A stretch of 64,000 bases of DNA from Luteipulveratus mongoliensis (lineage in GTDB: Bacteria > Actinomycetota > Actinomycetes > Actinomycetales > Dermatophilaceae): assembly GCF_001190945.1 (NCBI RefSeq), contig NZ_CP011112.1:1426001-1490000 (forward strand), read 5' to 3'. This document shows, piece by piece, positions 8,776-23,860 of this stretch; the first letter of the stretch is position 1, and the number at the start of each line of letters is the position of its first letter. The position numbers and the translations under genes were made by a program. The notes beneath the pieces are model-generated. The model worked only from the letters and a program-made list of their open reading frames with translations, did no database searches and had not been told where the DNA came from.

Positions 8776-10002
8776 GTGCTGGATACATATGACGTAATCG
8801 TGGTCGGTGCCGGAGTGGTCGGAGCGACCACGGCGTACGAGCTGGCGCGCGCCGGCGCGTCCGTCGCCTTGCTCGACGCTGCGTCAGACGTGGGCGGCGG
8901 GTGCTCCTACGCCAACGCCGGGGTCATCGCGCCCTCGCACGTCGGGCCGCTCGCAACACCTTCGCTGGTCGCTGAGGGCGCACACCAGATGTTCACGAAT
9001 CCGCCTGCAGTCCGGGTCAATCCGCAGCCATCACTGGTGCCGTGGCTGGCCCGCCTCGTCGTGTCGGCGCGTCAGCGGCGGGTCGACGTCGTCACCGCCA
9101 GGCTGCAGGAGCTGGCCTACCGCAGCGCGGACCTGCACCGGGCGTACGCCGAAGCAGGCCTGAGCGAGACCTACCGAACGACCGGCGCGTTGGAGATCTA
9201 CCTGTCGGAGGACGGGCCGAGCGGTGGGCTGACGGAGGCCGAGGCGCGCGAGCTGGTGCCCGCGCTGGGCCCGGTGCGGTCGGCGTACTTCCAGCCTGAC
9301 GAGGCCGTGGTCGAGAGCCGCGCCTACGTGCGGTCCATGGTGACCGCGGCCGAGAAGGCGGGCGCCCTGGTCCGGTTCGGTACGCCGGTCGAGCGGGTTC
9401 TCATGGACGGCGATCGGGTACGCGGGGTGGTCACCTCCGCGGGCGTGCTCCGCTCTGAATCCGTCGTGCTGGCAACGGGGCTCGAGACATCGGCGCTCGC
9501 GGCGACAGCCGGTCTACGAGTGCCGCTGCGTGGTGGTCGGGGCTATGTCATCGACCTTGAGGTTGATGGCGCACCGACGCTGCCCGTGCGGTTCAAGGAG
9601 CGGCGGATGGTGGTGTCGCCGATGCCGGGGTTCATGCGCGTGTGCGGCCTGATGGAGTTCGGCGCGGAGGGGCGTCCGGTCGATGCTCGACGAGCGGACG
9701 CGATGGTGGACGTGGTGACCAAGGCGCTCCCCGGCGTACAGGTCCGTCAGGTTCTGGACGTCTGGGCGGGAGAGCGCCCGTGTGCGCCCGATGGGGTGCC
9801 GGTGATCGGCAGCAGCAGTCGAGCGCGTGGTCTGACGATCGCCGCCGGGCACGGGATGTGGGGCCTCGTGCTGGCGCCCGTGACCGCGCAGATGGTGACG
9901 ACCGGTCTGCTCGACGGAGCGCCCACGCTGCACGACCCGATGCTGACCCCCGACCGCTTCAGCCCGCTCCGCCGCCGTCGAGAAGCATCCGCTGCCGCCT
10001 GA
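8776..10002 (+). CDS. DadA-like FAD-dependent amino-acid dehydrogenase
   Basis: 408-aa DAO-superfamily flavoenzyme. An N-terminal FAD-binding Rossmann motif (VVGAGVVGATTAYELA, residues 9-24), a GGCSYANAG segment typical of DadA (about 43-51) and a C-terminal GHGMWGLVLAP motif fit D-amino-acid dehydrogenases or related oxidases. Predicted to oxidise a D-amino acid or secondary amine to the oxo acid, passing electrons to quinone or oxygen. The start is a GTG at 8776. It is divergent from the degenerate response regulator (69 nt apart). The substrate cannot be read from the sequence; hydroxyproline or glycine oxidases are alternatives. Confidence 0.8.
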   Translation: MLDTYDVIVVGAGVVGATTAYELARAGASVALLDAASDVGGGCSYANAGVIAPSHVGPLATPSLVAEGAHQMFTNPPAVRVNPQPSLVPWLARLVVSARQRRVDVVTARLQELAYRSADLHRAYAEAGLSETYRTTGALEIYLSEDGPSGGLTEAEARELVPALGPVRSAYFQPDEAVVESRAYVRSMVTAAEKAGALVRFGTPVERVLMDGDRVRGVVTSAGVLRSESVVLATGLETSALAATAGLRVPLRGGRGYVIDLEVDGAPTLPVRFKERRMVVSPMPGFMRVCGLMEFGAEGRPVDARRADAMVDVVTKALPGVQVRQVLDVWAGERPCAPDGVPVIGSSSRARGLTIAAGHGMWGLVLAPVTAQMVTTGLLDGAPTLHDPMLTPDRFSPLRRRREASAAA

Positions 10003-10138: not shown

Positions 10139-10594
10139 TCAGGCCCAGGTGCCGGCGACCTGGCGGACGCTGACGTTGAGTCGGTTCCAGACGTTGGTCA
10201 TCGCGACGTGCATCACGAGAGCCGCGAGTCCTTCCTCGTCGTAGTGCTTGGCCGCTTCCTCCCAGATGTGGTCCGGTACGGCGTCGCTCGTGTCAGCAAT
10301 CCGGGTGATCGACTCGGCCAGCGCGAGGGCGGCTCGTTCGGCGTCGTCGAAGTACGGTGCCTCGCGCCAGGCCGCGACCGTTGAGAGGCGCTCGTCGGTC
10401 TCGCCCGCCTTCTTCGCCAGCCGGTGCCCATACTCGAGGCACCACGCGCACCCGTTGATCTGGCTGGCGCGCAGGTGCACCAGCTCGAGAGTCGCGTCGG
10501 GTACGCCGTGCCCGTGGGGCATGGCTGCGATCGACTGCAGGGCCTCGACCGAGCCCTCGATGTAGGCGGCCGGGTTCTTCATACGCTGTTCCAT
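10139..10594 (-). CDS. AhpD/carboxymuconolactone-decarboxylase-like protein
   Basis: 151 aa with the AhpD-type redox motif CAWC (C49, C52) followed by H57 (CAWCLEYGH) in an all-helical carboxymuconolactone decarboxylase fold. Such proteins act as alkylhydroperoxidases or peroxidase-linked reductants. ATG at 10594 is preceded by GGAGGAG, which excludes the much longer upstream frame. The 80-bp upstream region holds a good ECF41-type promoter (10635-10661) matching that before the ECF41 gene at 50.1 kb. ECF41 sigma factors are usually encoded next to exactly this protein class, so this is probably the cognate target, separated here by 40 kb. Confidence 0.85.
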   Translation of the reverse strand: MEQRMKNPAAYIEGSVEALQSIAAMPHGHGVPDATLELVHLRASQINGCAWCLEYGHRLAKKAGETDERLSTVAAWREAPYFDDAERAALALAESITRIADTSDAVPDHIWEEAAKHYDEEGLAALVMHVAMTNVWNRLNVSVRQVAGTWA

Positions 10595-10674: not shown

Positions 10675-11802
10675 CTAGCTGTACGAGCCTGATTCGCGGC
10701 CGATCCGCGCGCCGACCTGGGTGAGCAGGTCGGCCGCGTCCGACATCGCCTGCTGCTGATCGGCACACAGGTCCGTGAGGGCGTACGTCGCCGCGAGACC
10801 CAGCGTGCGTGCTTCGGTCTGGCGCAGATCGACGCGGCCGGCGACCGCCACGACGGGTACGCCGGCGGCACGGGCGTGTGCAGCCACGCCGGCCGGCGCC
10901 TTGCCGCGCAACGACTGGGTGTCCAGCCGCCCCTCGCCGGTCACCACGAGCGAAGCCGTTTCGAGCGCGCGGTCGAAGTCGAGGAGCTCCAGCACCAGGT
11001 CGATGCCTCGGGCGATCGTGGCGCCGCATCCGGCGAGCGCTCCGAACGCGGTCCCACCCGCCGCGCCCGCTCCCGGTCGCTCGGCCAGGGCCCCAGCGAC
11101 GGGGTGTGCGGTCTCGCAGCACTCGACCCACTGGTGAAGGCCGGCCTCGAGCGCCCTGATGTCGTCGCGGCTGGCGCCCTTCTGCGGGCCGAACACCGTT
11201 GCTGCGCCTGTTGGTCCGAACAATGGGTTGTCGACGTCGCAGGCGAGGACGACCTCGACGCCGTCGCACAAGCGGAGGCACGGTCGGAGGTCCACCGAAC
11301 TGAGTACGCGCAGCACTCCGCCGCCGCGGCCGAGTTGCCCCCCGTTGAGGTCACGGAGCTCGGCTCCCAAGCCTTCGAGCAGACCGGCGCCGCCGTCCGT
11401 ACAGGCGGAGCCACCCAGGCCGAGCACGATGCGGCGTGCGCCGCGCTCGATCGCGTCGCGCATCAGCACACCCGTGCCGTACGACGTCGCGTCCAACGGT
11501 GCGAGGTGCCCGGCAGGGAGTTGGTTGAGTCCGCTCGCCGCGGCCAGCTCGACGACCGCAGTGTCGCCGCGGACGGCGTACGACGTGTCCAGGGGAGCGC
11601 CGATGGGGCCGGAAGTCTCTATGGTCACCGGTCGGAAGCCCGCTGGCTCCAGGACTTCCAGCAACGAGTCGCCGCCGTCGGAGACGGGCATCTCGAGCAC
11701 CTCGACATCCGGACTTGCCTGACGGATGCCGCGTGCGATCGCCGCCGCAGCTGCGGGTGCCGACAGCGATCCTTTGAACGAGTCCGGGGCGACGATGATC
11801 AC
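10675..11802 (-). CDS. Glycerate 2-kinase (GlxK/GarK family)
   Basis: 375 aa with the family's opening IIVAPDSFKGSLSA and internal GGSACTDGGAGLLEGLGAEL and GEGRLDTQSLRGKAP segments. It phosphorylates D-glycerate to 2-phosphoglycerate with ATP, feeding lower glycolysis. Last gene of a minus-strand operon: its GTG start overlaps the DUF2264 stop by 4 nt (GTGA), a sign of translational coupling. Its presence suggests that the operon's substrate ends in glycerate, via hydroxypyruvate or tartronate semialdehyde reduced by the 2-hydroxyacid dehydrogenase at 18.3 kb (inference). Confidence 0.92.
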   Translation of the reverse strand: MIIVAPDSFKGSLSAPAAAAAIARGIRQASPDVEVLEMPVSDGGDSLLEVLEPAGFRPVTIETSGPIGAPLDTSYAVRGDTAVVELAAASGLNQLPAGHLAPLDATSYGTGVLMRDAIERGARRIVLGLGGSACTDGGAGLLEGLGAELRDLNGGQLGRGGGVLRVLSSVDLRPCLRLCDGVEVVLACDVDNPLFGPTGAATVFGPQKGASRDDIRALEAGLHQWVECCETAHPVAGALAERPGAGAAGGTAFGALAGCGATIARGIDLVLELLDFDRALETASLVVTGEGRLDTQSLRGKAPAGVAAHARAAGVPVVAVAGRVDLRQTEARTLGLAATYALTDLCADQQQAMSDAADLLTQVGARIGRESGSYS

Positions 11803-13670
11803 AGGAGCACATCCTGGTGCTTGAACTCCACCCGGACGGGTCTGCCGTCCGGCAGGGTCGCCTCGATCCTGCCGTCAACGACCTCCGCGGCGGCTTTGCC
11901 GCGGTCGAGATCGGCGCCGAGCCCGACCAGAGCTGCGCTGTAGGTGACAGGGGCACCGCGGACCGACCGGATGAGCGGGGTCGCGGCATACCTGCCGAAC
12001 GCGCTCGTCGACTCGGTCTGTACGACCTGGGCCGAGCCGTCGTGCCCGGCCAGCGGGAGGAGGGCGCTGGTCAGCCCTGCAGCTCGTACGACCGCGTCAT
12101 CGATCTTTGGTGGAGGGTCGTCGGACGCGAGCTGCCAACCACTCTCGAAGACGTCCAGCTCGGCGGGTGCCTCGATCCGGTGACAACGCAGCTCCCAGGG
12201 GCCGGCCGAGACCACCACCGTGTCGATCCGCCCCGGTCCGGTCGAGCCGTCCGGCCACATCGGCTCGTGCCAGGACGCCGCGAACGAACCCGACACGGAT
12301 GTGCGATGGATGCGGCTCCGTCGAGAGAGTGCGCCCGCTGAGTCGATGAGCCCAATGTGGTTGTCCGCCAACGACATCGAGTCGTGCACGCCGAGCATCG
12401 GGGCAGTCGCTGACGAGTAGGCCAGGCGGGAGTAGTGCGGGTCGTCGAGGCTGGACAAGGTCGCATGGTTGTCGCTGCCGTGGTTGCTCAATCGGACCAC
12501 GCCGTCGCTGCGGGTCGCGCTGATCGTGAAGCCAGGAGCAGCGAAGGACGCCTGCTGGTCGGCGCGCTCGACGGGCAGATCAGCCTCGCGGTCGACCCAG
12601 CACGGGTGGTCCGCGGGCAGCAGCAGACCGATGAACCCCTTGGCCAGCCAGTAGGGCGAGGCGGGGGCAGAGTAGCTCTGAACCATGGGCGAGAACGGTT
12701 GGTACCAGCCAAGACTCGGCACTCCGTCGGGCGTGGTGAAGCCGCGGTCGACGAAGTGCCGCAGCATGCCGCTCGCCAGTCGACGGGTCAGCCCGGGCTC
12801 CAGCGGCGTTGCCCCGACCAGCGCACCCGTCCACGGAGCGGCAGCGGCCGCGAATCGGTAGATCAGCGAACGCCCCTGGTGCATAGGTGCGCCGTCAGCG
12901 CCGACCAGATGGACGTAGTCCTCCAGGAACCGGCGAAGTCGCGGACGCGTCTCGGGGAACTGGCCGATGTCGCCGAACAGGTGGTCCAGCAACGCCGGGT
13001 AGGTGTGCATCGCCCAGCCGCAGTAGTGGTCGAAACGATCACTGGTCTGCGCGTCACCCCCGTCGCGGAACCAGCCGTCTCCGACGTAGAACTCCTCGAT
13101 CCGTGCGACATCGCGCTCGATCTCGGCGGCGCCCAGAGGCGCGCCAACGCTGCGCAGGAACCGATCGACGGCCACCCGGAAGAGGTGCCAGTTGTTGTCC
13201 GGGATCTCCAGCCCGCTCGCTCCCGTCAGCCAGGCCACCGCCTGCTCCTGGGTGCGGCTCGAGAGCCCGTCCCAGAGCCACGGCCGGGTCAGCTGGAGCC
13301 CGAGGACGATCGAGCAGGCCTCGACGATCGTCTGCCGGCAGTCGGCGTCGATCCGGGGCCACGCCTCCGGGTGCGCCGCGTCGACCCCGTGAGCCAGGCC
13401 GTCGGCGTACGCCTGAAGCAGTCCCGCCGGATCCTCACCGTCCGCGCCGCGCACCCTCAGGGAGAGGAGGAGGAACGTACGCGCGAAGCCCTCCAGTCCG
13501 TCGGACCTCGGTCCGGACTGGGATGGTCGGCCGGGCAGCGAGATCAGCGCGTGTCCTGGGCTCGCGAACGGCTGCGCTGGTGCGAGCAGTCCGTCGGCGG
13601 CCGCGAGCCAGTGTGCTCGGGTGTAGCCGGTCCGCGGGCTGACTGCGAGGTCGAGCGGTGGCAGTAGCAC
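11799..13670 (-). CDS. DUF2264 protein (possible glycosidase), operon copy
   Basis: 623 aa and unmistakably the same family as the protein at 20.6-22.6 kb: shared ALISLPGRPSQSGPRSDGLE-type N-terminus, VDRFLRSVGAPL, YVGDGWFRDGG, DHYCGWAMHTYP and SPYWLAKGFIGLLLPADHP. The N-terminal ~400 aa look like an (alpha/alpha)-barrel, the C-terminus like a beta-sandwich, a plan found in several glycoside hydrolases and lyases. As I recall, characterised relatives include exo-beta-glucuronidases (GH154), but I cannot verify that. There is no signal peptide, so it acts in the cytoplasm on an imported glycan or glycoside. GTG start with GGAGGT; 14-nt gap after the TIM-barrel gene. Confidence 0.8.
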   Translation of the reverse strand: MLLPPLDLAVSPRTGYTRAHWLAAADGLLAPAQPFASPGHALISLPGRPSQSGPRSDGLEGFARTFLLLSLRVRGADGEDPAGLLQAYADGLAHGVDAAHPEAWPRIDADCRQTIVEACSIVLGLQLTRPWLWDGLSSRTQEQAVAWLTGASGLEIPDNNWHLFRVAVDRFLRSVGAPLGAAEIERDVARIEEFYVGDGWFRDGGDAQTSDRFDHYCGWAMHTYPALLDHLFGDIGQFPETRPRLRRFLEDYVHLVGADGAPMHQGRSLIYRFAAAAAPWTGALVGATPLEPGLTRRLASGMLRHFVDRGFTTPDGVPSLGWYQPFSPMVQSYSAPASPYWLAKGFIGLLLPADHPCWVDREADLPVERADQQASFAAPGFTISATRSDGVVRLSNHGSDNHATLSSLDDPHYSRLAYSSATAPMLGVHDSMSLADNHIGLIDSAGALSRRSRIHRTSVSGSFAASWHEPMWPDGSTGPGRIDTVVVSAGPWELRCHRIEAPAELDVFESGWQLASDDPPPKIDDAVVRAAGLTSALLPLAGHDGSAQVVQTESTSAFGRYAATPLIRSVRGAPVTYSAALVGLGADLDRGKAAAEVVDGRIEATLPDGRPVRVEFKHQDVLL

Positions 13671-13684
13671 TTCTGACCTCCGGG

Positions 13685-14578
13685 TCAGCTCAGGGAGGGC
13701 TGGACGTGCTGCACGTAGCGACGTGCGACAGTCTCGACGACCTCGACCGGATCCGCCTGCCAGACGGCCTCATTGAAGATCTCGACCTCGACGGGACCGT
13801 CGTAGCCCGCGTCGGAGACCCAGCGTGTGATCGACGCGAAGTCGGCGTAGCCGTCGCCCATCATGCCGCGGCTGAGCAGCACGTCCTGCTGCAACGGGAG
13901 CACCCACTCGGCCAGCTGGTAGGACGCGATCCGGTCGCCGGCGCGACGGATCTGCCGCTCGAGATCCGGGTCCCACCAGACGTGGAACGTGTCGACCACG
14001 ACGCCGACGTCCTCCGACGGGAAGGGCTCAGCGAGGTCGATCGCCTGGCCGAGAGTGGAGAGCACTGCGCGGTCGGCGCAGTACATCGGGTGCAGCGGCT
14101 CGAGCGCGAGACGTACGCCGTGGCGGTGCGCGACGGGGACCAGCTCGGCCAGGCGGTCGGCGACTCTCTTACGCGCCTCAGCGACGTCGAGTCGAGGCTG
14201 GTCGGCGCGGTCCATGCCGCCGACCACGAGGACGAGGCAGTCCGCCTCGAGCTCGGCGGCCTCCTCGATGGCTGCGACGTTGTCGGCATGCGCCTGCACT
14301 GAGTCGTCACCGGTGAGGAAGCCGCCGCGGCACAGGGACGAGACGTGCAACCCGGCGCGCTGCACGAGGGCCGCGGACTCCGCGATGCCGTACGCCTGCA
14401 CGGGTTCTCGCCAGAGTCCGACGTGGCCGATCCCAGCTCTCCCGAGGCCGGCGACCAGGTCCGGCAGTGACCAGTGCCGGGTCGTCCACTGGTTGAGTGA
14501 GAGCCGCGCCAGCCTGATGTCGCCTGCGGTCGGCGTGGCGATGGCGGCCGGCGCGCCGGACGGGATGTCGACCGGCAT
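13685..14578 (-). CDS. Sugar phosphate isomerase/epimerase-like TIM-barrel protein
   Basis: 297 aa of the xylose-isomerase-like TIM-barrel family (AP_endonuc_2). Likely metal ligands are visible in order: Glu in RLALEPLHPMY, Asp and His in VVVDTFHVWWDP, and Glu in PVEVEIFNE. Members isomerise or epimerise keto-sugars, and some eliminate 3-keto-glycosides. The ATG at 14578 overlaps the preceding gene's TGA by 1 nt (TGATG), so I prefer it over longer upstream starts. It sits between DUF993 and DUF2264 in the operon; the substrate is unknown. Confidence 0.85.
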   Translation of the reverse strand: MPVDIPSGAPAAIATPTAGDIRLARLSLNQWTTRHWSLPDLVAGLGRAGIGHVGLWREPVQAYGIAESAALVQRAGLHVSSLCRGGFLTGDDSVQAHADNVAAIEEAAELEADCLVLVVGGMDRADQPRLDVAEARKRVADRLAELVPVAHRHGVRLALEPLHPMYCADRAVLSTLGQAIDLAEPFPSEDVGVVVDTFHVWWDPDLERQIRRAGDRIASYQLAEWVLPLQQDVLLSRGMMGDGYADFASITRWVSDAGYDGPVEVEIFNEAVWQADPVEVVETVARRYVQHVQPSLS

Positions 14579-15735
14579 CAGACGAGCCCGTTGACGGCGA
14601 GGAACTGACCCATCCGCTCCGCGGCCAGATCCGGGTCGGGCAGCAGCCCGGCGGCATCGGCGAGCCGGAACGTGTCGATCAGGTGCATCGGGCTCCGCCC
14701 GGACTGCAGCCCGCCCACCATGAGGAACCCGGGCTGATGACCGGACAGCCAAGCCAGGAAAGCGATTCCGGTCTTGTAGTAGTAGGTCGGCTCGCTGAAC
14801 AGGTGCCGGGCCAGCGGCACGGTCGCCGCAAAGGCCTCGTCGTACGCCGCGTGATCGCCCTGATCGAGTGCGGCCAGTGCCGTGGCCGCCGCCGGGGCGA
14901 TGGCAGCGAAGATCCCGAGCAGCGCGTCGCTGTGATGGGTGCCGTCGCCCTTGATCAGCTCGGGGTAGTTGAAGTCGTCGCCTGTGTAGAGACGTACGCC
15001 GTCCGGCAGGCGCGAACGCAGGCCCTGCTCGTGCGCGGCGTCCAGCAAGGACACCTTGATCCCGTCGATGCGATCGGTGTGCGCCGCGATGATCTCCAGG
15101 ACGACATCCGTTGCTGCTGCAACGTCTTCGTGGCCCCAGTAGCCGGCCAGGGCGGGATCGAACATCGGGCCGAGCCAGTGCAGGATCACCGGCGAGGCGA
15201 CCTGACCGAGGAGCTTGTCGTAGACCGCGAGGTAGTCCTGCGGGCCGTCGGCCGCGGCAGCCAGATGACGGCTGGCCATCAGGATCGGCGTGGCGCCCGC
15301 ATCCTCGACGACCGCGAGCTGCTCGGTGTATCCGGCGATGACCGCGTCGAGCGAATTGGCCGATGGCAGTAGGTGATCGGTGCCCGCACCGCAGGAGATC
15401 TGACCGCCGACCGAGCGTGCCTCGGCCGCGCTTCGCCGGATCAGCTCCTGGGTCGACTCCCAGTCCAGACCCATGCCTCGCTGTGCGGTGTCCATGGCGT
15501 CAGCCACACCGAGCCCCCATGACCACAGATGGCGACGGAAGGCGAGCGTGGAGTCCCAGTCGATGCCGGCGGGAGCGCCCGGGCGGTTGTCCAGGCGCGG
15601 TTCTGCGACGACGTGCGCGGCAGCGTACGCCCGGCGACCAGCAGGTGGCCCGGAAACCGTTGCCCAAGAGGCAGGTTCGCGCAGTTGGTACGTGCTCCAT
15701 CCGCCGTCGGCAGATGGCAGTCGGACGCTGGTCAC
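14578..15735 (-). CDS. DUF993 / dihydrodipicolinate-synthase-like protein
   Basis: 385 aa of the DUF993 family, related to DHDPS/NAL-type TIM-barrel aldolases. Conserved segments include SCGAGTDHLLPSANSLDAV, DGIKVSLLDAAHEQGL, YTGDDFNYPELIKGDG and EPTYYYKTGIAFLAW. The Lys in GIKVSLLD is a plausible Schiff-base lysine (inference from the superfamily). No firm reaction is established to my knowledge. The GTG start at 15735 overlaps the upstream oxidoreductase stop by 4 nt, and its own stop overlaps the next gene, so it is co-translated with a Gfo/Idh oxidoreductase and a TIM-barrel isomerase. An aldol or retro-aldol step on an oxidised sugar is the simplest guess. Confidence 0.82.
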   Translation of the reverse strand: MTSVRLPSADGGWSTYQLREPASWATVSGPPAGRRAYAAAHVVAEPRLDNRPGAPAGIDWDSTLAFRRHLWSWGLGVADAMDTAQRGMGLDWESTQELIRRSAAEARSVGGQISCGAGTDHLLPSANSLDAVIAGYTEQLAVVEDAGATPILMASRHLAAAADGPQDYLAVYDKLLGQVASPVILHWLGPMFDPALAGYWGHEDVAAATDVVLEIIAAHTDRIDGIKVSLLDAAHEQGLRSRLPDGVRLYTGDDFNYPELIKGDGTHHSDALLGIFAAIAPAAATALAALDQGDHAAYDEAFAATVPLARHLFSEPTYYYKTGIAFLAWLSGHQPGFLMVGGLQSGRSPMHLIDTFRLADAAGLLPDPDLAAERMGQFLAVNGLV

Positions 15736-16880
15736 AGCGCGATCTCCGGGACCTCAAGACGACGGCCCTCGGCCGAGCTGCGCAGTCCCAGCTCCGCCAG
15801 CTGGATGCCACGTGCGCCGGCGAGCAGGTCGTACGGGTGATCGCCCTCGCCGAGCACGGACTTGATGAACTGCTCCCACTGCGCCTTGAACCCGTTGTCC
15901 AGGTCGGCGTTGTCGGGGACAGCCGACCACTGGTCGCGGAACGGCTCCGTGACAGGAAGGTCCGGGTTCCACACGGGCTTGGGCGTATTCGCGCGGTGCT
16001 GAGTCACGCAGTTGCGCAAGCCGGCGACCGCGCTGCCGTGGGTGCCGTCGACCTGGAACTCCACCAGCTCGTCGCGGAAGACCCGCACAGCCCACGAGGA
16101 GTTCACCTGGGCGATCACGCCGCCCTCCAGCTCGAAGATCGCGTACGCCGCGTCGTCGGCCGTTGCCTTGTACGTCCGGCCCTGCTCGTCCGCGCGCTCC
16201 GGGATGTGGGTGACAGCCTTTGCCGTCACGCCGGTCACGCGGCCGAGGATGTTCTCCAGGACGTACGACCAGTGGCAGAACATGTCGACCACGATGCCGC
16301 CGCCGTCCTCGGCGCGGTAGTTCCAGCTCGGACGCTGCGCCTGCTGCCAGTCTCCCTCAAAGACCCAGTAGCCGAACTCGCCTCGTACCGAAAGGATCTC
16401 GCCGAAGAACCCGGAGTCGACGAGACGCTTGAGCTTGACGAGTCCAGGCAGGTAGAGCTTGTCGTGCACGACACCGACCTGAACCCCTGCGTCGCGCGCG
16501 AGGCGAGAGAGCTCGATGCCTTCGTCAAGGGTCTCGGCGGTCGGCTTCTCCGTGTAGACGTGGATGCCGGCGGCGATCGCCTGCTTGATCGCGGTGTAGC
16601 GCTGCGAGGTGACCTGCGCGTCGAAGTAGATGTCCGGCGAGGAGGCGAGTGCCTTGGTCAGGTCGGTCGTCCACTCGTTGACCTGGTGCTCCTTGGCAAT
16701 CGCAGCGAGCTTGTCCTCGTTGCGCCCGACCAGCACGGGCTCGACCTGCACGCGTCGACCGTCTCCGAGGTCGACGCCGCCCGCATCACGGATCGCGAGG
16801 ATCGAGCGGACCAGGTGCTGTCGGTAGCCCATGCGTCCGGTGACGCCGTTCATCACGATGCGCAGGGTTTGCGGTGACAT
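15732..16880 (-). CDS. Gfo/Idh/MocA-family oxidoreductase
   Basis: 382 aa. N-terminal NAD(P)-binding domain (IVMNGVTGRMGYRQHLVRS), the family's EKP motif (VYTEKPTAETLDEG) near residue 120 and a C-terminal alpha/beta domain with GGGIVVDMFCHWSYVLEN. Such enzymes oxidise ring hydroxyls of sugars, inositols or glycosides. First gene of a five-gene minus-strand operon running to 10675. GAGGAG precedes the ATG at 16880, and the upstream extension of the frame runs into the divergent regulator's promoter region, so it is rejected. Predicted to catalyse the entry oxidation of the operon's pathway. Confidence 0.87.
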   Translation of the reverse strand: MSPQTLRIVMNGVTGRMGYRQHLVRSILAIRDAGGVDLGDGRRVQVEPVLVGRNEDKLAAIAKEHQVNEWTTDLTKALASSPDIYFDAQVTSQRYTAIKQAIAAGIHVYTEKPTAETLDEGIELSRLARDAGVQVGVVHDKLYLPGLVKLKRLVDSGFFGEILSVRGEFGYWVFEGDWQQAQRPSWNYRAEDGGGIVVDMFCHWSYVLENILGRVTGVTAKAVTHIPERADEQGRTYKATADDAAYAIFELEGGVIAQVNSSWAVRVFRDELVEFQVDGTHGSAVAGLRNCVTQHRANTPKPVWNPDLPVTEPFRDQWSAVPDNADLDNGFKAQWEQFIKSVLGEGDHPYDLLAGARGIQLAELGLRSSAEGRRLEVPEIAL

Positions 16881-16980
16881 GTCACTCCTCAGGACGACGA
16901 GAGGGCCACGGACACGTGGCACCCACCGCCGGCACGGGCGGTGTGACCACCATCGAGAACTGGCGCGGTCGAAGCAAGGG

Positions 16981-16998
16981 GATCGAACACAATCGAAA
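16981..16998. promoter_or_regulatory. Candidate DeoR-type operator in a divergent region
   Basis: GATCGAACACAATCGAAA contains two ATCGA direct repeats exactly 10 bp apart (16982 and 16992), one helical turn, as in many DeoR-family operators. It lies in the 184-bp region between the Gfo/Idh operon (start 16880, minus) and the DeoR/LacI hybrid regulator (start 17065, plus). A comparable ATCGA cluster precedes the 2-hydroxyacid dehydrogenase at 18149-18171. Confidence 0.4.
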
Positions 16999-17064
16999 GA
17001 GATCCTTCCAAATCGTTCAGATGCGGCCGTAGAGTGGGCCCGCCCACGAGCAGAAGGACGTCTG

Positions 17065-18156
17065 ATGAGGCTGGCAGCCGAACGCCGGGCGGCGATCCTG
17101 CGGACCGCACGCCTGCGCGGATCCGTGCGCGTGACGGAGGTCGCCGAGGCGCTCGGTGTCTCCACCGTGACGATCCGGCGGGACGTCACGGCCTTGGTCG
17201 ACGAGGGCGTCCTCGAGCGGGTGCACGGTGGTGCGACGCTCGCCCCGGACCCCGACCAGCCGGCCGCCGGTCCGCGTCGAGCGCTGCGCGCGACGATCGG
17301 GCTGGTGGTGCCGTCCGCGACGTACTACTACCCCGCGGTGATCCGCGGCGCGGAAGCAGCGGCAGCAGCCCAGGGCGTACGACTCGTGCTAGCCATCTCG
17401 AACTACTACGAGTCCGAGGAGCGCCGGCAGGTGTCCCGGCTGATCGAGATCGGTGTCGACGGCATCCTTCTGGCCACGAGCAAGGCACCGGACGACGATG
17501 CCGAGCTGACCCGCTGGGTCGGGTCCGTCCCGGTCCCGACCGTGCTGATCGAGCGCCAGGCTGACGTGGATGCCGGCGTGGATGTGGAGCACGTCCGCAG
17601 CGATCACGCCGCCGGCGCTCGGCTGGCGATCCGGCACCTGGTCGAGCTCGGTCACTCCGCCGTGGCACTGGCCTCGCAGGAAGGCACGCCGACGGCGCGG
17701 TGGCTCTTTGAGGGCTATCGCCAGGCGGTCGCCCGCGGAATGATCGCCGACGGGATCGACCCGATCCTTCTACCGCCGGCGGATGCTGTCCCCGAGCTCC
17801 GGGCCGCGGCTCTGACCGAGGTCCTGGACCGGTGCGAGCAGCACGGCATCCGCGCGGTGCTCGTCCACAACGACAAGGACGCGATGGACCTGGTCCGGAT
17901 CGCGGCGGCGCGTGGTCTGCGGGTGCCCGACGACCTGGCGATCGTGGCGTACGACGACGAGGTGGCCGCGCTCTGCGACGTCCCGCTCACCGCGGTCGCC
18001 CCGCCCAAACGGGAGGTGGGGCGTCTCGGTGTCGAGCTGATGATGCAACGCCTCACGCAGGCTGATCACTCGGTGTCGCAGCGCATCTCCTTGCTGCCGC
18101 GCCTCATCGTGCGATCGTCGTGCGGCGGCGACGCATCGTCCTCTTCTGATCGATAA
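17065..18156 (+). CDS. DeoR-HTH / LacI-type sensor hybrid regulator
   Basis: 363 aa. Residues 1-57 are a DeoR-type winged helix (ERRAAILRTARLRGSVRVTE, then VSTVTIRRDVTALVDEGVLE and HGGAT). Residues about 73-350 are a LacI/ribose-binding-protein sensor domain (RATIGLVVPSATYYYP ... DDLAIVAYDDEVAALCDVPL). The fusion replaces the sugar-phosphate SIS-like sensor of classic DeoR proteins with one that binds free sugars. It is divergent from the Gfo/DUF993/DUF2264 operon and upstream of a 2-hydroxyacid dehydrogenase, so it probably controls both. ATG at 17065 sits after AGAAGGA, which rejects a long upstream extension. Confidence 0.85.
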   Translation: MRLAAERRAAILRTARLRGSVRVTEVAEALGVSTVTIRRDVTALVDEGVLERVHGGATLAPDPDQPAAGPRRALRATIGLVVPSATYYYPAVIRGAEAAAAAQGVRLVLAISNYYESEERRQVSRLIEIGVDGILLATSKAPDDDAELTRWVGSVPVPTVLIERQADVDAGVDVEHVRSDHAAGARLAIRHLVELGHSAVALASQEGTPTARWLFEGYRQAVARGMIADGIDPILLPPADAVPELRAAALTEVLDRCEQHGIRAVLVHNDKDAMDLVRIAAARGLRVPDDLAIVAYDDEVAALCDVPLTAVAPPKREVGRLGVELMMQRLTQADHSVSQRISLLPRLIVRSSCGGDASSSSDR

Positions 18157-18173
18157 CGATCGATTGATCGAAT
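18149..18173. promoter_or_regulatory. ATCGA repeat cluster before the hydroxyacid dehydrogenase
   Basis: Three ATCGA copies at 18149, 18159 and 18167 (spacings 10 and 8), overlapping the stop codon of the hybrid regulator and lying 107-131 bp before the next ATG. It shares the repeat unit and one-turn spacing with 16981-16998. Candidate operator for the hybrid regulator. Confidence 0.35.
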
Positions 18174-18279
18174 GAGACTTGACCTGCTTCGGCGTCGGCT
18201 GCGTTACTGAGCGCACTCGCGTCGTCAAAGGCGTACGCCATGCAGCTGGGCCTGCATCCTGAGTGCAGGGGAGCGTGAC

Positions 18280-19287
18280 ATGACTGAACGGCTTGTTCTC
18301 GGGCTCGCGATGCGACCCGGTTTGCAGCACCGGCTCTTCACGGAGGATGCCTGGGTACGGCTGGCCGCTGTCGCGACCGTCGATCCCAACGAGACGGTGA
18401 CCTCTTTCGATCCCGACGTGCAGCAGGGGATCGCGGACATCGACGTGCTCGTGACGGGATGGGGTAGCCCCGCCCTCACCGCGAGTGCGCTCAGCGCGAT
18501 GCCGCGGCTTCGTGCTGTCGTACATGCCGCCGGATCGGTGAAACCCCATCTGCCAGAAGACTTCTGGAGACACCACATCCCGGTCAGCTCGGCCGCTGAT
18601 GCCAATGCGATCCCGGTGGCGGAGTACACCTTGGCGACGATCATCCTCGCCAACAAGGCCATCCTGCCGATCGCGGACCGTTATCGGCAGGAGCGCGCCC
18701 ATCGCGACTGGGACGCGCTCTATCCGCGAATGGGCAACTACCGCAAGCGTGTTGGGGTCGTCGGCGCATCGAAGATCGGACGGCGTGTGCTGGCCCTGCT
18801 GCAGCAGCTGTCGGTCGAGGTGGTGGTCGCTGATCCCTACCTCGACCCCGATGCCGCTCGTGCGATGGGCGCCGAGCTCATGGATCTCGACGACCTGGTC
18901 GCCTCGAGCGATGTCGTCAGCCTCCACGCGCCCGACATCCCCGAGACGCAGCATCTGATGAACGCCCGGCGCCTCGCCTCCATGAGGGCCGGAGCCACAT
19001 TGATCAACACTGCGCGTGGCGCGCTCGTGGACCACGACGCGTTGGTCGAGGAGCTCCAGACGGGTCGGATCAACGCCGTGCTGGACGTGACGACGCCGGA
19101 GGTGCTCGCCGCCGACTCTCCGCTGTACGACCTCCCGAACGTCCTGCTCACACCTCACGTCGCGGGGTCCTTGGGCACCGAGCTCGCCCGTCTGGGTGAC
19201 TCTGCGGTCGTGGAGGTCGAGCGCCTGGCGCACGGCCTGCCGATGCTGACCGAGGTCGACGCAGACCAGCTCGGACGCAGCGCCTGA
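18280..19287 (+). CDS. D-2-hydroxyacid dehydrogenase, copy A
   Basis: 335 aa of the D-isomer-specific 2-hydroxyacid dehydrogenase family. The NAD-binding motif is VGVVGASKIGRRVL, with Ala-Ser in place of the usual second Gly. Catalytic Arg lies in INTARGALVDHD, Glu in DVTTPE and His in LLTPHVAGS. Predicted to reduce a 2-oxo acid such as hydroxypyruvate or glyoxylate with NAD(P)H. GCAGGGGAG precedes the ATG. It follows the hybrid regulator and is a paralogue of the enzyme at 22.6-23.7 kb. Both lie beside a DUF2264 gene, which implies one shared pathway step; glycerate kinase nearby makes hydroxypyruvate reduction attractive. Confidence 0.87.
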   Translation: MTERLVLGLAMRPGLQHRLFTEDAWVRLAAVATVDPNETVTSFDPDVQQGIADIDVLVTGWGSPALTASALSAMPRLRAVVHAAGSVKPHLPEDFWRHHIPVSSAADANAIPVAEYTLATIILANKAILPIADRYRQERAHRDWDALYPRMGNYRKRVGVVGASKIGRRVLALLQQLSVEVVVADPYLDPDAARAMGAELMDLDDLVASSDVVSLHAPDIPETQHLMNARRLASMRAGATLINTARGALVDHDALVEELQTGRINAVLDVTTPEVLAADSPLYDLPNVLLTPHVAGSLGTELARLGDSAVVEVERLAHGLPMLTEVDADQLGRSA

Positions 19288-19529: not shown

Positions 19530-20633
19530 TCAGCCGGCGTTGCGGGGAGGGCCGACCGAGTCGCGTACGACGACGTGGGTGCCCAACGTGTCCTTGTCTC
19601 GGGATCGGACCATCGGGTCGTCCTCCCTCAGACTGTCCAGGGCGGCGCGTACGGCGGATCGTCCCAGCTCTTCGAGGGGGACTCGGACCGTGGTGAGCGC
19701 GGGCGTGAGCTCCACGGAGACCGGCATGTCGTCGTACCCGATGATCGACAGGTCCTGCGGGATCTGGAGCCCGGCCTCGCGGACGGCCTGGTAGACGCCG
19801 GCGGCCAGCAAGTCGTTGGCCGCGAAGACGGCAGTGAAGTCCAGCCCGGCGTCTAAGGCCTCATGGAGATGCTCCTGCCCCCACCGACGTCCGAACGCAC
19901 CCGTGCGGATCAGCTCGGGATCGGGCGTGATGCCCCGTGCCTCGAGCGCTCGTCGATGGCCCGCGACCCGGTGCCTGGTCGTGGACAGCTCGGTCGGCCC
20001 ACCGAGGTAGAGGATGCGGCGATGGCCGGCGTTCAGGAGGTGGTCCGTCGCTGCGAAGGCGCCACCCTCGTTGTCGTAGTCGACGGACACGACGGGCGCG
20101 TCCGTCCCCAGCGACGGTCGACCGCACAAGGTCAGCACGGAGCCGAGAGACGCCAGCGACCGCGCGTGCCGGGCCATCTTGGCCACGTAGTCGGCGTCGT
20201 CGTACGACCCGCCGACGAGTACGACGACATCGGCGCGCTGCTGGATCAGCAGCTCGACATAGGCGAGCTCACGCTCCGGACGACCCTGCGAGCTGCACAC
20301 CAGGCACAGGAGATTGCGCTCGGCGGACTCCTGCTGGACGCCACGCGTGATGTATCCGAAGAACGGGTCGACGACGTCGTTGACCACGATGCCGACGATG
20401 CGGCTGCTCGACCCGGCGAGGGCACGGGCGTGGGCGTTGACGGTGTAGCCGAGGCTGTGCATCGCGGACTCGATGCGTTCGCGCGTCGCTGCTGCCACTG
20501 GGTAGTTGCCGTTGACAGTCCGGGACACGGTGGCGGCTGAGACGCCGGCCTCGCGGGCGACGTCGGCGATCGTGACAGGACCGTCGGCGGTGCCCCGCCC
20601 AGCGGAGCGTCGGCGGCCGGGCCGTGTCGTCAT
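19530..20633 (-). CDS. LacI-family transcriptional regulator (DUF2264/importer locus)
   Basis: 367 aa. LacI HTH near residues 20-70 (VTIADVAREAGVSAATVSRT, with the hinge helix region ARALAGSS) and a periplasmic-binding-like sensor to about 345 (SIIGYDDMPVSVELTPALTT). ATG at 20633 overlaps the DUF2264 stop by 4 nt (ATGA), so the regulator is the last gene of a three-gene minus operon starting at 23658. Two matching 13-bp sites in the divergent region (23725-23737 and 23836-23848) have the AANCGNTT core of LacI operators and are its likely targets, giving autoregulation plus control of the divergent importer operon. Confidence 0.88.
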   Translation of the reverse strand: MTTRPGRRRSAGRGTADGPVTIADVAREAGVSAATVSRTVNGNYPVAAATRERIESAMHSLGYTVNAHARALAGSSSRIVGIVVNDVVDPFFGYITRGVQQESAERNLLCLVCSSQGRPERELAYVELLIQQRADVVVLVGGSYDDADYVAKMARHARSLASLGSVLTLCGRPSLGTDAPVVSVDYDNEGGAFAATDHLLNAGHRRILYLGGPTELSTTRHRVAGHRRALEARGITPDPELIRTGAFGRRWGQEHLHEALDAGLDFTAVFAANDLLAAGVYQAVREAGLQIPQDLSIIGYDDMPVSVELTPALTTVRVPLEELGRSAVRAALDSLREDDPMVRSRDKDTLGTHVVVRDSVGPPRNAG

Positions 20634-22606
20634 CGCTGCACCTCCGGGCCGTCCGGTGAGAGCCAGACGCACGTCATGTCGTGATCCTCCGAGCCCACCG
20701 CGAGGATCACCTCCCTGTCATCGGGGAAGCGTATCCGCACCTGGTCGCCCTGGACGCGGGCGGAGATGGACCGTGCGAGTGCGTCGGGCCAGCAGGCATC
20801 GCCGGTCAGGACGACGGCGGCGACGGTCGTGGTGGGCGTGTCCGGGCCAGGTGCGGACTGGAGGTACGGCGTGGCTGAGTGCGGACCAAAAGCGTTGGTG
20901 CCCATGGAGTTTCGGATAGATGCGGTGTCCCAGCCATGCAGGCCGATGACAAGGGATGTGAGGCCGTCCGCCCGCCGGGCGAGCGCCCACGGAAGCCCTG
21001 CGGCGCTGTGGCCCGTCTCCAGCGGAGAGTGCGACGCGATGGCGTACCCGCCCGCGAGTGTCGTACAGCCGGCGGGCGCATCGACGCGATGGACGCGTAC
21101 CTCGATCGACCCGTGCACGACGCTGGCGGTCTCCAGCCGGCAGAGCCGATCGGTGTCGATGGGGTGGGGCGCCTGCTGGCAGGAGCGGGCGTAGCGCTCG
21201 CCAGTGCCGAGCCGTCGGATCTGCGTCGGGGCCGTACGCGCTCCGTCCGGCGCGCGCAGGATCAGCTGGTTGTCCAGCGCCTCATGAGCATCGGTCTCCG
21301 GGCCCGTACGACTGGAGAAGGCCAGGCGTCCGTAGTGCGGATCCGCTTCTGGTGGTTGAAGACTCGTGGTTTCGTCAGGTAGTGGAAGGTGATCCGATCC
21401 ATGGTTGAGGAGCCGGACGATGCCGTCGTGGTGGGTCGCCTGGACCAGCTGGCCGGGTGCGGTGAGGGTGACCTGCTGGTCGGCGAGGTCGAGTGGCACT
21501 GCGCGTTCGGGCGCGGTCCAGACCGGGTGGTCCGGTGGGAGAAGTAGGCCGAGGAAGCCTTTGCTGGCCCAGTAGGGCGAGCCCGGGCCGGAGTACGGCT
21601 GGGTCGCGGGCAAGAACGTGTCGTACCAACCCAGGGTGAGCAGGCCGCGGTGGTCGGGCACGCCACGCTCGACGAAGTGCCGCGCCGCGCCTGATGCCAG
21701 CCGTCGGGTCGCGCCGGGTTCGAGCGGTGAGCAGCCTTCGAGCTCGCCGAGCCAGAACGGTGCGAGACACCCGATCCGGTAGGCCAGTGACCGTCCGAAG
21801 TGCACGGGCGCGCCGTCGGTCCCGAACAGATGCACCGCGTCCTGAAGGTGCCGTTTGAGCCGCTCTTGGTACGCGCCCCGGCGAGTCGCCGTGTCGACGT
21901 CGCCGGTCGCATCGGCGATTCGTGCCCACAGCAGCGGATAGAGGTGCAGCGCCCAGCCGTTGTAGTTGTCGAAGTTCTGCCCGGGGCCGTCGGTGTACCA
22001 GCCGTCGCCGACATACCAGTTCTCGATGCGGTCCAGTCCGCTGTCGATCTCACCGCGGTCGAACGGGCCGCCGACGGAGGCTAGGAATTCCTCGACGACG
22101 ACCTGGAAGAGCACCCAGTTGTTGTCCCAGGTGCGTGCGCCGACGAAGCCGGCCAACCAGTCGACCACCAGAGCACGTTCGCGGTCATCAAGCTGGTCCC
22201 AGATGCGAGCACGGCTCTCGTGCAAGCCGATTGCGACCGCGGCCGCCTCGACGAGCTGCTGGGAGCAGTCGGTCAGGCGTGGCCAGGCATCCGGATGGTC
22301 GGGGTCCGCGCCGGCGACGAGACCGGCGGCGTACCGCTCGGCCAGCTCATCGGAGCCACCGTGCGCGAGCCGGAACGAGGCCAGCATGAACGATCGGGCG
22401 AAGCCTTCGAGCCCGTCGCTGCGCAGCCCGGACCAGCTGGCGCGGCCGGGTGGACTGATCAGTGCACCGCTCGGACTGGCCCAGGGCGCCAGGGAGTTCA
22501 GCAGGTGATCGGCCAGCGCCTCCCAATGGTCCCTGGTCCACCCGGTGCGCGAGGACTGCACCCGGTTGGTCGGTGGCAGGAAGGGTGTGGCGGGCGGATG
22601 GTTCAT
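20630..22606 (-). CDS. DUF2264 protein (possible glycosidase), importer-locus copy
   Basis: 658 aa, paralogous along its length to the protein at 11.8-13.7 kb: SGALISPPGRASWSGLRSDG, WLAGFVGARTWDNNWVLFQV, NWYVGDGWYTDG, FDNYNGWALHLYPLLWAR and SPYWASKGFLGLLLPPDHP. No signal peptide. Its ATG overlaps the preceding dehydrogenase stop and its stop overlaps the LacI start (both ATGA), so all three are translationally coupled. Lying divergent from an oligosaccharide importer and a cytoplasmic fucosidase, it probably removes a terminal residue (possibly a uronic acid) from imported oligosaccharides; the specificity is inference. Confidence 0.8.
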   Translation of the reverse strand: MNHPPATPFLPPTNRVQSSRTGWTRDHWEALADHLLNSLAPWASPSGALISPPGRASWSGLRSDGLEGFARSFMLASFRLAHGGSDELAERYAAGLVAGADPDHPDAWPRLTDCSQQLVEAAAVAIGLHESRARIWDQLDDRERALVVDWLAGFVGARTWDNNWVLFQVVVEEFLASVGGPFDRGEIDSGLDRIENWYVGDGWYTDGPGQNFDNYNGWALHLYPLLWARIADATGDVDTATRRGAYQERLKRHLQDAVHLFGTDGAPVHFGRSLAYRIGCLAPFWLGELEGCSPLEPGATRRLASGAARHFVERGVPDHRGLLTLGWYDTFLPATQPYSGPGSPYWASKGFLGLLLPPDHPVWTAPERAVPLDLADQQVTLTAPGQLVQATHHDGIVRLLNHGSDHLPLPDETTSLQPPEADPHYGRLAFSSRTGPETDAHEALDNQLILRAPDGARTAPTQIRRLGTGERYARSCQQAPHPIDTDRLCRLETASVVHGSIEVRVHRVDAPAGCTTLAGGYAIASHSPLETGHSAAGLPWALARRADGLTSLVIGLHGWDTASIRNSMGTNAFGPHSATPYLQSAPGPDTPTTTVAAVVLTGDACWPDALARSISARVQGDQVRIRFPDDREVILAVGSEDHDMTCVWLSPDGPEVQR

Positions 22607-23658
22607 GCGATGCGGCTCAAGTCGTCGAGGTGCACGAGATGCTGCATGGGAAGTCCGGCGACCAGGCGCTCGATCTCGGCGACCGCGGCCTCCCCGAGGC
22701 GGGCGCGCTCGTTGCCGAGTGCGCCCGAGATGTGTGGAGTGAGAACCACATTCGGCAGATCGTAGTACGGAGATGTCGGCGGTAGGGGTTCCGGATCGGT
22801 GACGTCAAGGACCGCGTCGAGGCGGCCCGAGGTGACTTCGGGCAGCAACGCGTCGTGGTCGACCAGTGACCCTCTCGCGGTGTTGATGAGGACGCCGCGG
22901 TCCGGCATCAGCGCCAGCCGCGCAGCGTTGACCAGGTGATGGGTCTCGGGCAGTGCCGGGGCGTGGAGCGTGACGACCTCGCTGCGGCCGAACAGCTCAT
23001 CGAGCTCCACCCGGCGCGCACCGAGACGACTCGCTTCCTCAGCGCTCACGTGCGGATCGAACAGCAGGACCGTGGCATCGAGGGTGGCCAGGCGCTGCAG
23101 GACCAGGCGCCCGATGCGGGAGGCGCCGACGACGCCGACGGTGATCCCGTGCGTACCGAGGTCGCCGACCGGCTCCAGGTCGCGCAGGGCGTGCTGCTGG
23201 TAGTGCCCGTCCAGCTGGAAGGCCCGTTTGCGGGCGAGAACGATTGATGCGAAAGCGAATTCGGCCACTGGTACGGCGTTGGCGGCTGCGGCGGTCGAGA
23301 CCTGGAGACCGGACGCGAGCACCTCGGGACTGACGAGCCCTTTCACCGTGCCAGCCGCGTGCACCACGGCCTGCAGGCGTGGCGCCGCGGCCAGAACCTC
23401 ACCGGTGATGGGCGGGCAGCCCCAGCCGGACAGGAGGACGTCGCTCTCACCCAGGGTCGCGGCGAGGTCCGGGGCCAGCAGGTCTCGTACGGGCCGGATC
23501 GGGAGGACGTGCGCGACCTGAGCCAGGCGCCGACGGCTCGATGCGGTCAGTACGTCGTCAAGGACCCGCGGGCTCATGGCCACGAGCACGTTGGGCACGT
23601 CTCCGGATGCGGGCGAGTGCATCGCTCTGGACGAGGCATCGATGGATCTGTGCGTCAC
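22603..23658 (-). CDS. D-2-hydroxyacid dehydrogenase, copy B
   Basis: 351 aa, same clade as the enzyme at 18.3 kb: GVVGASRIGRLVLQRL nucleotide motif, LINTARGSLVDHDAL (Arg), DVTDPEPLPP (Glu) and VVLTPHISGALG (His). Predicted NAD(P)H-dependent 2-oxo acid reductase. GTG start at 23658 after GGGGGA. First gene of the minus-strand operon with DUF2264 and LacI. The duplicated pairing of this clade with DUF2264 in one window argues that the dehydrogenase acts on a product of the DUF2264 reaction pathway, not on a housekeeping metabolite. Confidence 0.87.
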   Translation of the reverse strand: MTHRSIDASSRAMHSPASGDVPNVLVAMSPRVLDDVLTASSRRRLAQVAHVLPIRPVRDLLAPDLAATLGESDVLLSGWGCPPITGEVLAAAPRLQAVVHAAGTVKGLVSPEVLASGLQVSTAAAANAVPVAEFAFASIVLARKRAFQLDGHYQQHALRDLEPVGDLGTHGITVGVVGASRIGRLVLQRLATLDATVLLFDPHVSAEEASRLGARRVELDELFGRSEVVTLHAPALPETHHLVNAARLALMPDRGVLINTARGSLVDHDALLPEVTSGRLDAVLDVTDPEPLPPTSPYYDLPNVVLTPHISGALGNERARLGEAAVAEIERLVAGLPMQHLVHLDDLSRIA

Positions 23659-23823: not shown

Positions 23824-23835
23824 CCGATGTCTAAT

Positions 23836-23848: not shown

Positions 23849-23860
23849 TACGGAGGTGTC

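Follow-up and report, generated by a model that had tools for sequence, protein, structure and literature searches.

A conserved Gfo/Idh-DUF993-TIM-barrel gene module, with DUF993 as a very probable lysine-dependent lyase of the dihydrodipicolinate synthase fold

We analyzed a 64,000-nucleotide stretch (hereafter the window) of the single-contig, 5.42-Mb genome of Luteipulveratus mongoliensis, and in particular a minus-strand operon that carries a gene of the DUF993 family. The conserved unit around this gene consists of three genes, Gfo/Idh oxidoreductase, DUF993 and TIM-barrel isomerase, with glycerate kinase as a frequent guest and DUF2264 outside the unit. DUF993 is very probably a new functional branch of the known dihydrodipicolinate synthase (DHDPS) superfamily, and it sits in a conserved, portable module. 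Probably, this module breaks an oxidized sugar down to small fragments, with glycerate as the form in which one of them exits.

A first-pass annotation of the locus had described five translationally coupled minus-strand genes, with a DeoR/LacI hybrid regulator and a 2-hydroxyacid dehydrogenase in the divergent direction. Reading of the DNA and profile matches confirmed this layout, as follows.

15732-16880, minus strand: Gfo/Idh/MocA oxidoreductase, 382 residues, operon gene 1, module core (Pfam PF22725, PF02894, PF01408)
14578-15735, minus strand: DUF993, 385 residues, proposed Schiff-base aldolase/lyase, module core (PF06187, 612 bits)
13685-14578, minus strand: TIM-barrel sugar isomerase/epimerase of the AP_endonuc_2 family, 297 residues, module core (PF01261, 129.8 bits)
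11799-13670, minus strand: DUF2264 (GH154-type), predicted uronate 4,5-dehydratase, between the TIM-barrel and glycerate kinase genes (PF10022, 351.5 bits)
10675-11802, minus strand: glycerate kinase, GK-I type (PF02595, 395.9 bits, cut-off 23; NCBIfam TIGR00045, 363 bits, cut-off 168)
16881-17064, no strand: divergent intergenic region of 184 bases between the Gfo/Idh and regulator genes, likely promoter/operator (DNA read)
17065-18156, plus strand: regulator with a DeoR-type helix-turn-helix and a LacI-type ligand-binding domain (PF08220, HTH_DeoR; PF13377, Peripla_BP_3)
18280-19287, plus strand: 2-hydroxyacid dehydrogenase copy a, D-isomer type (PF02826, 164 bits)

All five operon genes are coupled: the Gfo/Idh and DUF993 genes overlap in GTGA, DUF993 and the TIM-barrel gene meet in TGATG, a 14-base gap containing GGAGGT precedes DUF2264, and DUF2264 overlaps the glycerate kinase gene, again in GTGA. 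The Pfam E-values, all well outside the range of chance, were 3.8e-184 for DUF993, 6.5e-105 for DUF2264, 2.2e-118 for glycerate kinase, 1.9e-37 for AP_endonuc_2 and 5.5e-25 for the Gfo/Idh C-terminal domain. Reading of the intergenic region, without statistics, revealed only one weak inverted repeat (CACCGCC-N6-GGCGGTG at 16924).

The neighborhoods of DUF993 were mapped at 125 other loci in four sets: the best 80 DUF993 loci of a genome-wide scan, mostly from Actinomycetota; 20 regions from an even phylum draw of 296 genomes; nine regions from relatives; and 16 plasmid loci chosen by hand among 147 plasmid records with DUF993, which are not a random sample. DUF993 loci number at least 588. DUF993 is carried by 24 of the 296 draw genomes, L. 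mongoliensis included, and three of the 23 others were left out: in G013 the contig measures only 6.7 kb, in G227 the locus runs off the contig, and in G294 the match is very weak. Among the relatives' genomes it occurs in 13 of 97, again with L. mongoliensis, whereas both other genomes of the genus lack it. Because automatic gene calls in GC-rich loci often picked wrong frames, neighbors were counted from tblastn maps with a fixed query set; such counts miss families that are outside the set or too distant.

Gfo/Idh and TIM-barrel genes were found near DUF993, on the same strand, at 77 of the best 80 loci, at all 20 draw loci, at 7 of 9 loci in relatives and at 5 of 16 plasmid loci. Wherever both are present, Gfo/Idh lies upstream and the TIM-barrel gene downstream of DUF993; at one draw locus (L148) the latter two are about 0.8 kb apart. 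The exceptions to the gene order are L046, L088 (Gfo/Idh 1.5 kb off) and L089 among the best 80, L187 and L189 among the relatives (short contigs on which the TIM-barrel gene was not found) and 11 of the 16 plasmid loci. The core unit extends beyond one phylum, since it was seen in Thermosporothrix (L057), Paenibacillus (L099), Chelatococcus (L031) and Paroceanicella (L122). DUF2264 lies near DUF993 at just 1 of the 125 loci, on a plasmid, with none in the best 80, the draw or the relatives, and we therefore rejected the five-gene set as a conserved unit. The earlier proposal that the five genes make up one pathway thus found no support, the co-occurrence check keeping only three of them together.

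We then modeled the window DUF993 protein with AlphaFold2 (28 sequences; mean local confidence, pLDDT, 92.6). Compared by VIA-align, the model gave a Z score of 53.9 with structure 4dnh and of about 29 with dihydrodipicolinate synthases and their relatives (29.7 with the DHDPS 3flu, 2.3 A over 285 residues), and Foldseek matched it to 3pb0 with an E-value of 7.2e-10. The likeness to the DHDPS/N-acetylneuraminate lyase superfamily (DapA, YagE, KdgD) thus comprises a TIM-barrel fold over some 285 residues, and it may extend to the invariant lysine, which a weak alignment places in the expected register at the sixth-strand position. Unlike that superfamily, DUF993 has 385 residues, of which the first 33 lie outside the matched fold, and PF00701 (DHDPS) did not match the window protein at an E-value of 0.001, PF06187 being the only family. 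Lys227, Asp82, Thr83 and His186 are invariant in 46 diverse DUF993 sequences. Lys227 is the lysine of GIKVSLLD and lies on strand 223-229 of the model, and the GIK lysine of DapA is the catalytic one. A caution applies to the sole profile alignment with DHDPS sequences, which pairs these two lysines but has a probability of 0.3% and contains two mis-framed rows among its five DHDPS rows; the register of Lys227 is supported by modeled fold and strand order, not by statistics. Taken together, DUF993 is very probably a Lys-dependent lyase of the DHDPS fold and likely of the aldolase class, in support of the aldol-type role with the GIKVSLLD lysine suggested in the first-pass annotation.

Structure 4dnh is SMc04132 of Sinorhizobium meliloti, a member of the same family with 54% identity to the window protein over its whole length, deposited as hypothetical/uncharacterized. 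The literature searched yielded no paper naming DUF993 and no function for 4dnh or SMc04132. The TIM-barrel enzyme likewise has a relative of known structure in SMc04130, whose locus number is lower by two, and one article places SMc04132 and SMc04133 in one gene list (PMC12542648). Annotations of DUF993 proteins among the records listed read "hypothetical protein," "DUF993 family protein" or "dihydrodipicolinate synthase family protein." The description of DUF993 and DUF2264 as the unknown steps of the locus therefore holds for DUF993, for which only this uncharacterized structure was found, and not for DUF2264, which has characterized relatives. Because the three-gene order is fixed in several phyla and a solved but unexplained structure exists, the function of DUF993 is directly testable.

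The glycerate kinase gene offers a view of the end of the pathway. Near DUF993, a glycerate kinase of either type was found at 5 of the best 80 loci, 6 of 20 draw loci, 1 of 9 loci in relatives and 9 of the 16 chosen plasmid loci. At six loci (L048, L061, L109, L139, L140 and L185) it directly follows the TIM-barrel gene, either overlapping it or starting no more than 2 bases beyond it. With two glycerate kinase genes, the number in the L. mongoliensis genome itself, scattered randomly over 5.4 Mb, 6 of 20 would have a chance of about 4e-9; this is a rough figure that takes no account of phylogeny or of the fact that some members have larger genomes. The PF02595 type accompanies DUF993 in Actinomycetota loci and on plasmid pAO1, and the DUF4147+MOFRL type in the proteobacterial loci L029, L117, L119, L121 and L123. 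These two types are unrelated. That one replaces the other near DUF993 speaks most strongly for glycerate as a true intermediate. Going by this gene association, it is rather likely that one three-carbon product exits through glycerate; the exit through glycerate and the catabolic nature of the module, both proposed earlier, are supported. The proposed exit resembles the E. coli GarL-GarR-GarK pathway, in which an aldolase yields tartronate semialdehyde, followed by a reductase and a glycerate 2-kinase. GarL is a metal-dependent aldolase that releases pyruvate and is unrelated to DUF993, and tblastn with garL gave no match beside DUF993 at the 125 loci.

DUF993 is single-copy in the genome, and both of the DUF2264 matches found genome-wide lie in the window. 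The second DUF2264 copy and its neighbors are the following.

19530-20672, minus strand: LacI-family regulator next to DUF2264 copy b (PF00356, PF13377)
20630-22606, minus strand: DUF2264 copy b, predicted uronate dehydratase (PF10022, 376 bits; aligned to 8oi4 and 9o4u)
22603-23658, minus strand: 2-hydroxyacid dehydrogenase copy b, ATGA-coupled to DUF2264 copy b (PF02826, 158.8 bits)
23795-27530, plus strand: ATP-binding cassette (ABC) importer, two permeases and a solute-binding protein (PF00528 twice, PF13416)
32560-34986, plus strand: polysaccharide lyase family 8 (PL8), candidate supplier of uronate-bearing fragments (PF08124, PF02278 and PF02884, the last just below cut-off)

PF07470, the usual partner family of GH154, which covers GH88 and GH105 (unsaturated uronyl hydrolase), has no match in the L. 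mongoliensis genome; it matched in 3 of 14 control genomes. A GH88-dependent use of the DUF2264 product was rejected on this ground. The search of this genome for uronate routes, which covered PF07470, UxaC and KduI, found no UxaC either, and the one gene it found of the KduI family is iolB, which scores above the iolB cut-off.

The first-pass annotation had suggested the release of glycosides by DUF2264. DUF2264 corresponds to the former family GH154, and the suggestion conflicts with PMC12269599, in which BcGDH and BT_3677 are reported as beta-D-glucuronate 4,5-dehydratases. Because the tested members are reported as such, glycoside release is doubtful. A glycoside hydrolase role of DUF2264 was rejected, since BcGDH and the enzyme on which GH154 was founded both act as dehydratases according to that paper. 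The same source mentions two GH154 members earlier reported as a glucuronidase and a galactosidase, and it describes the BcGDH alanine mutants of N176, N177, W178, F181, Y229, R285, Y289 and Y354 as inactive. In alignments to 8oi4/9o4u, the equivalents of these eight residues are identical in both window DUF2264 proteins; with the numbering anchored on the R285A chain 9nwf, this covers eight of the ten BcGDH residues tested, E74 and R78 lying outside the HMMER alignments. Furthermore, the operon copy (11799-13670) matches the beta-D-glucuronic acid dehydratase 9o4u with an E-value of 8.7e-19, and both copies match the PF10022 profile. Both are predicted uronate 4,5-dehydratases. Unlike BcGDH, the window DUF2264 proteins have about 250 residues past the aligned part; BT_3677 also has a second domain (PMC12269599). 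A further difference from the GH154/BcGDH systems is that the window genome lacks a PF07470 partner and has 2-hydroxyacid dehydrogenase genes alongside.

A 2-hydroxyacid dehydrogenase gene directly adjoins DUF2264 in Streptomyces fungicidicus (coupled), in Chelatococcus and at draw locus L181. Among the ten regions of a DUF2264 draw, the dehydrogenase was adjacent in one (L181) and 4.4 kb off in another (L174), GH88 was near in a third (L177), and neither was found in seven; GH88 stood in place of the dehydrogenase at 2 of 13 DUF2264 loci examined. A firm module of DUF2264 and 2-hydroxyacid dehydrogenase was rejected in view of these counts; the other pairs come from L127 and L128, which were hand-chosen, and from the window. 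The pairing without GH88 (L127, L128, L181, L174 and 20630-23658 of the window) is seen in a minority of loci and may represent a separate uronate step. The proximity of a lyase to GH154 has a known parallel, because haloarchaeal glycosaminoglycan loci are described as combining lyase, GH154, GH88 and an ABC importer (PMC13260240); the window differs in that GH88 is missing.

It is quite possible, although clearly short of an even chance, that the five-gene arrangement is a local insertion, in which DUF2264 is tied only to the neighboring uronate genes and is unrelated to the DUF993 substrate. Such an insertion would fit the single DUF2264 neighbor among 125 loci and the DUF2264-dehydrogenase pairs elsewhere that have no DUF993 in the stretch. 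The tight coupling inside the window operon argues against it, as do the hexuronate or aldarate genes that lie near DUF993 at 4 of the 20 draw loci, in three genera (L134, L141, L142 and L146), and the presence of both gene sets side by side on a plasmid of Glaciihabitans sp. INWT7 (L028). On this plasmid, DUF993 and glycerate kinase genes stand beside a DUF2264/2-hydroxyacid dehydrogenase/LacI/ABC set, as in the window, and genes for a CaiB-type CoA-transferase and an enoyl-CoA hydratase separate the two sets.

As for the substrate of DUF993, one option is that it is an ordinary DHDPS-family 2-oxo-acid aldolase or dehydratase with pyruvate or hydroxypyruvate as partner, acting for example on a 2-keto-3-deoxy sugar acid derived from the DUF2264 product. 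The DHDPS fold and Lys227 are in agreement with this, and a KdgD-like superfamily member adjoins DUF993 at L141 and L142, but as a separate gene. In DapA, a G-S/T-T-G-E motif after strand 2 binds the pyruvate carboxylate, and this motif was visible in the DapA and NanA rows of the profile alignment. The window DUF993 protein has no GTTGE/GSTGE-type motif: the segment following its second strand (76-79) reads AMDTAQ, with Asp82-Thr83 invariant. For this reason, the ketone partner of DUF993 is probably not a 2-oxo acid. In addition, His186 stands opposite Tyr133 of DapA in the same profile alignment, with the same 0.3% probability and two of five DHDPS rows mis-framed. We consider an ordinary 2-oxo-acid enzyme unlikely.

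The two partner enzymes were compared with solved structures and equivalog models. The closest solved chain to the Gfo/Idh enzyme is 3oqb (E 1e-147), and its Glu110-Lys111-Pro112, Asp198 and His202, which we take to be catalytic, are at least 97% conserved in 114 sequences. The TIM-barrel enzyme is closest to 7vpf, 3ju2 (SMc04130) and 3qc0; Glu161, Asp197, Gln222 (102 Gln, 13 His) and Glu265/Glu267, presumably metal ligands, are conserved in 115 sequences. Its likeness to the IolO and D-tagatose 3-epimerase (DTE)-type epimerases appears in its top NCBIfam match, 5-keto-L-gluconate epimerase, at 45.3 bits, far under the IolO equivalog cut-off of 300. It differs from them in that the customary metal-ligand His is mostly Gln. 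The hydroxypyruvate isomerase Hyi equivalog gave 26.5 bits, below its cut-off of 353.

We hypothesize the following route. Going by its family, the Gfo/Idh enzyme would oxidize its substrate, either a sugar or a sugar acid, to a ketone, and the TIM-barrel enzyme, judging from its family and its kept metal ligands, would epimerize or isomerize the keto compound. DUF993 would then form a Schiff base through Lys227 and cleave a C-C bond by retro-aldol reaction, the modeled fold suggesting this chemistry. The substrate may be a hexuronate-derived 5-keto-hexonate of the fructuronate, tagaturonate or 5-ketogluconate type, with the Schiff base at the C5 ketone beside CH2OH and the C3-C4 bond broken to give tartronate semialdehyde and dihydroxyacetone. 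The 2-hydroxyacid dehydrogenase would reduce tartronate semialdehyde, or hydroxypyruvate after isomerization, to glycerate, and glycerate kinase, from its gene association, would convert D-glycerate to 2-phosphoglycerate. In this genome, the interleaved DUF2264 and dehydrogenase genes would add uronate 4,5-dehydration, and the locus would serve the use of fucosylated glycans that contain uronates. We favor a 5-keto-hexonate, which agrees with the uronate neighbors and with the lack of a carboxylate motif, yet this substrate is a guess and a doubtful one. The explanation as a whole, with the three-enzyme module, Schiff-base aldolase route, glycerate exit and 5-keto-hexonate, falls only somewhat short of an even chance. 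In its boldest form, it would make DUF993 a DHDPS branch that forms the Schiff base with a hydroxymethyl ketone and not with a 2-oxo acid, and that with the Gfo/Idh and TIM-barrel enzymes provides a further unphosphorylated hexuronate/hexonate route to tartronate semialdehyde and dihydroxyacetone and here replaces GH88, KduI and UxaC downstream of the uronate dehydratases; we regard that form as rather unlikely. If the proposed chemistry were true, the specificity of the aldolase would be new and so would the route for uronates; it would also account for the disposal of uronates in an organism with GH154-type dehydratases but without GH88.

Among the draw loci with uronate or aldarate genes, L134 begins with Gfo/Idh, DUF993, TIM-barrel gene, a coupled 2-hydroxyacid dehydrogenase and second copies of the TIM-barrel and Gfo/Idh genes, in this order. 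Next come glucuronate isomerase, at 488.8 bits (cut-off 387), D-mannonate oxidoreductase, at 359 bits (cut-off 281), and finally a protein of an epimerase family. L141 and L142, from one genus, continue with an epimerase-family short-chain dehydrogenase/reductase (SDR) and a protein of the 5-dehydro-4-deoxyglucarate dehydratase subfamily (375-378 bits, cut-off 278). An enolase-superfamily acid-sugar dehydratase that reaches none of the equivalog cut-offs follows, and farther on a glycerate kinase. Relatives of both dehydratases are near DUF993 at L146.

Several observations weigh against the hexuronate route. Outside the draw, uxaC or kdgD markers were near DUF993 at 1 of 105 loci (1 of the best 80, none of 9 in relatives, none of 16 on plasmids), and since such markers were near at 4 of 20 draw loci, the uronate link is real in places and not general. 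UxaC in particular was near DUF993 at 1 of 125 loci, and the 5-dehydro-4-deoxyglucarate dehydratase subfamily member of L141/L142 reaches only 270 bits against the KdgD equivalog cut-off of 374. Dihydroxyacetone kinase, although predicted, was near DUF993 at only 1 of 125 loci (it is present elsewhere in the L. mongoliensis genome), 2-hydroxyacid dehydrogenase at 2 (none in the best 80, one in the draw, none in relatives, one on plasmids) and tartronate semialdehyde reductase, searched with garR, also at 2. By tblastn, no glycerate kinase was found in the fetched stretch at 14 of 20 draw loci and 75 of the best 80. Finally, the core Gfo/Idh was not found at 8 plasmid loci of the 16, and a CoA-transferase set takes its place there; all 8 are proteobacterial. 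We have no good explanation for these loci; a hexuronate substrate does not account for them, and our sole idea is a related substrate with an extra acyl part.

Alternatively, DUF993 might cleave an unphosphorylated ketohexose of the fructose, tagatose or psicose type to dihydroxyacetone and glyceraldehyde, with an aldehyde dehydrogenase providing glycerate for the kinase. This is suggested by the gene run of pAO1 (GMC oxidoreductase, aldehyde dehydrogenase, Gfo/Idh, DUF993, glycerate kinase), by aldehyde dehydrogenases near DUF993 at 5 of 20 draw loci and by the weak matches of the TIM-barrel enzyme to ketose-epimerase models. However, the window operon has a 2-hydroxyacid dehydrogenase in the stead of an aldehyde dehydrogenase, and hexuronate or aldarate genes lie near the module at 4 of 20 draw loci; we judge a ketohexose substrate improbable. 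A redox cleavage of glycosides or anhydrosugars by keto-sugar elimination, as in levoglucosan and C-glycoside routes, with DUF993 as a hydratase or eliminase and not a C-C lyase, is very unlikely: the pairing of Gfo/Idh with AP_endonuc_2 is typical of such routes, but the similarity of the Gfo/Idh enzyme to the levoglucosan dehydrogenase equivalog is far under the cut-off (51.1 bits, cut-off 650), and the glycerate kinases would be left unexplained.

The CoA-transferase-type loci (L030, L032, L033, L034, L117, L118, L119 and L121) carry varying partners: enoyl-CoA hydratase, acyl-CoA dehydrogenase, GMC, aldehyde dehydrogenase, aldo-keto reductase (AKR), Dabb, MOFRL glycerate kinase and sugar-ABC genes. 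On a plasmid of Streptomyces sp. NBC_00557 (L124, 9830-21011), a DUF993 homologue lies directly 5' of a type I polyketide synthase gene with AMP-binding, malonyltransferase and SDR genes nearby, and the DUF993 family may thus have a biosynthetic role as well. In one genome (G008; L144/L171), the DUF993 gene is fragmented with an internal TGA, either a decayed copy or an assembly error.

Rightward of the operon, the window continues with the ABC importer, an alpha-L-fucosidase, an M1 peptidase, a beta-helix protein, the PL8 lyase and an M60 peptidase. The M1 peptidase, beta-helix/GH141-like protein, PL8 lyase and M60 peptidase are consecutive at 28841-36423, and together with DUF2264 this stretch is similar to the chondroitin locus of Bacteroides caccae, where M60-like genes are present too (PMC12269599). 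Genes at 27446-28801, 37589-40406 and 44836-50095 resemble an oxidative L-fucose route: a GH29 fucosidase, an AKR, an enolase-superfamily dehydratase, an SDR, a fuconolactonase-like protein (189 bits, under the cut-off of 400) and a 2,4-didehydro-3-deoxy-rhamnonate-hydrolase-like protein (260 bits, below the cut-off of 500). With them lies a LutB/LldF-type lactate oxidation set, in which LutB exceeds its cut-off. Just 3' of the operon, on the same strand, there is a carboxymuconolactone-decarboxylase-family gene (10139-10588, minus strand), convergent with an FAD-dependent DAO-family gene (8776-10002, plus strand).

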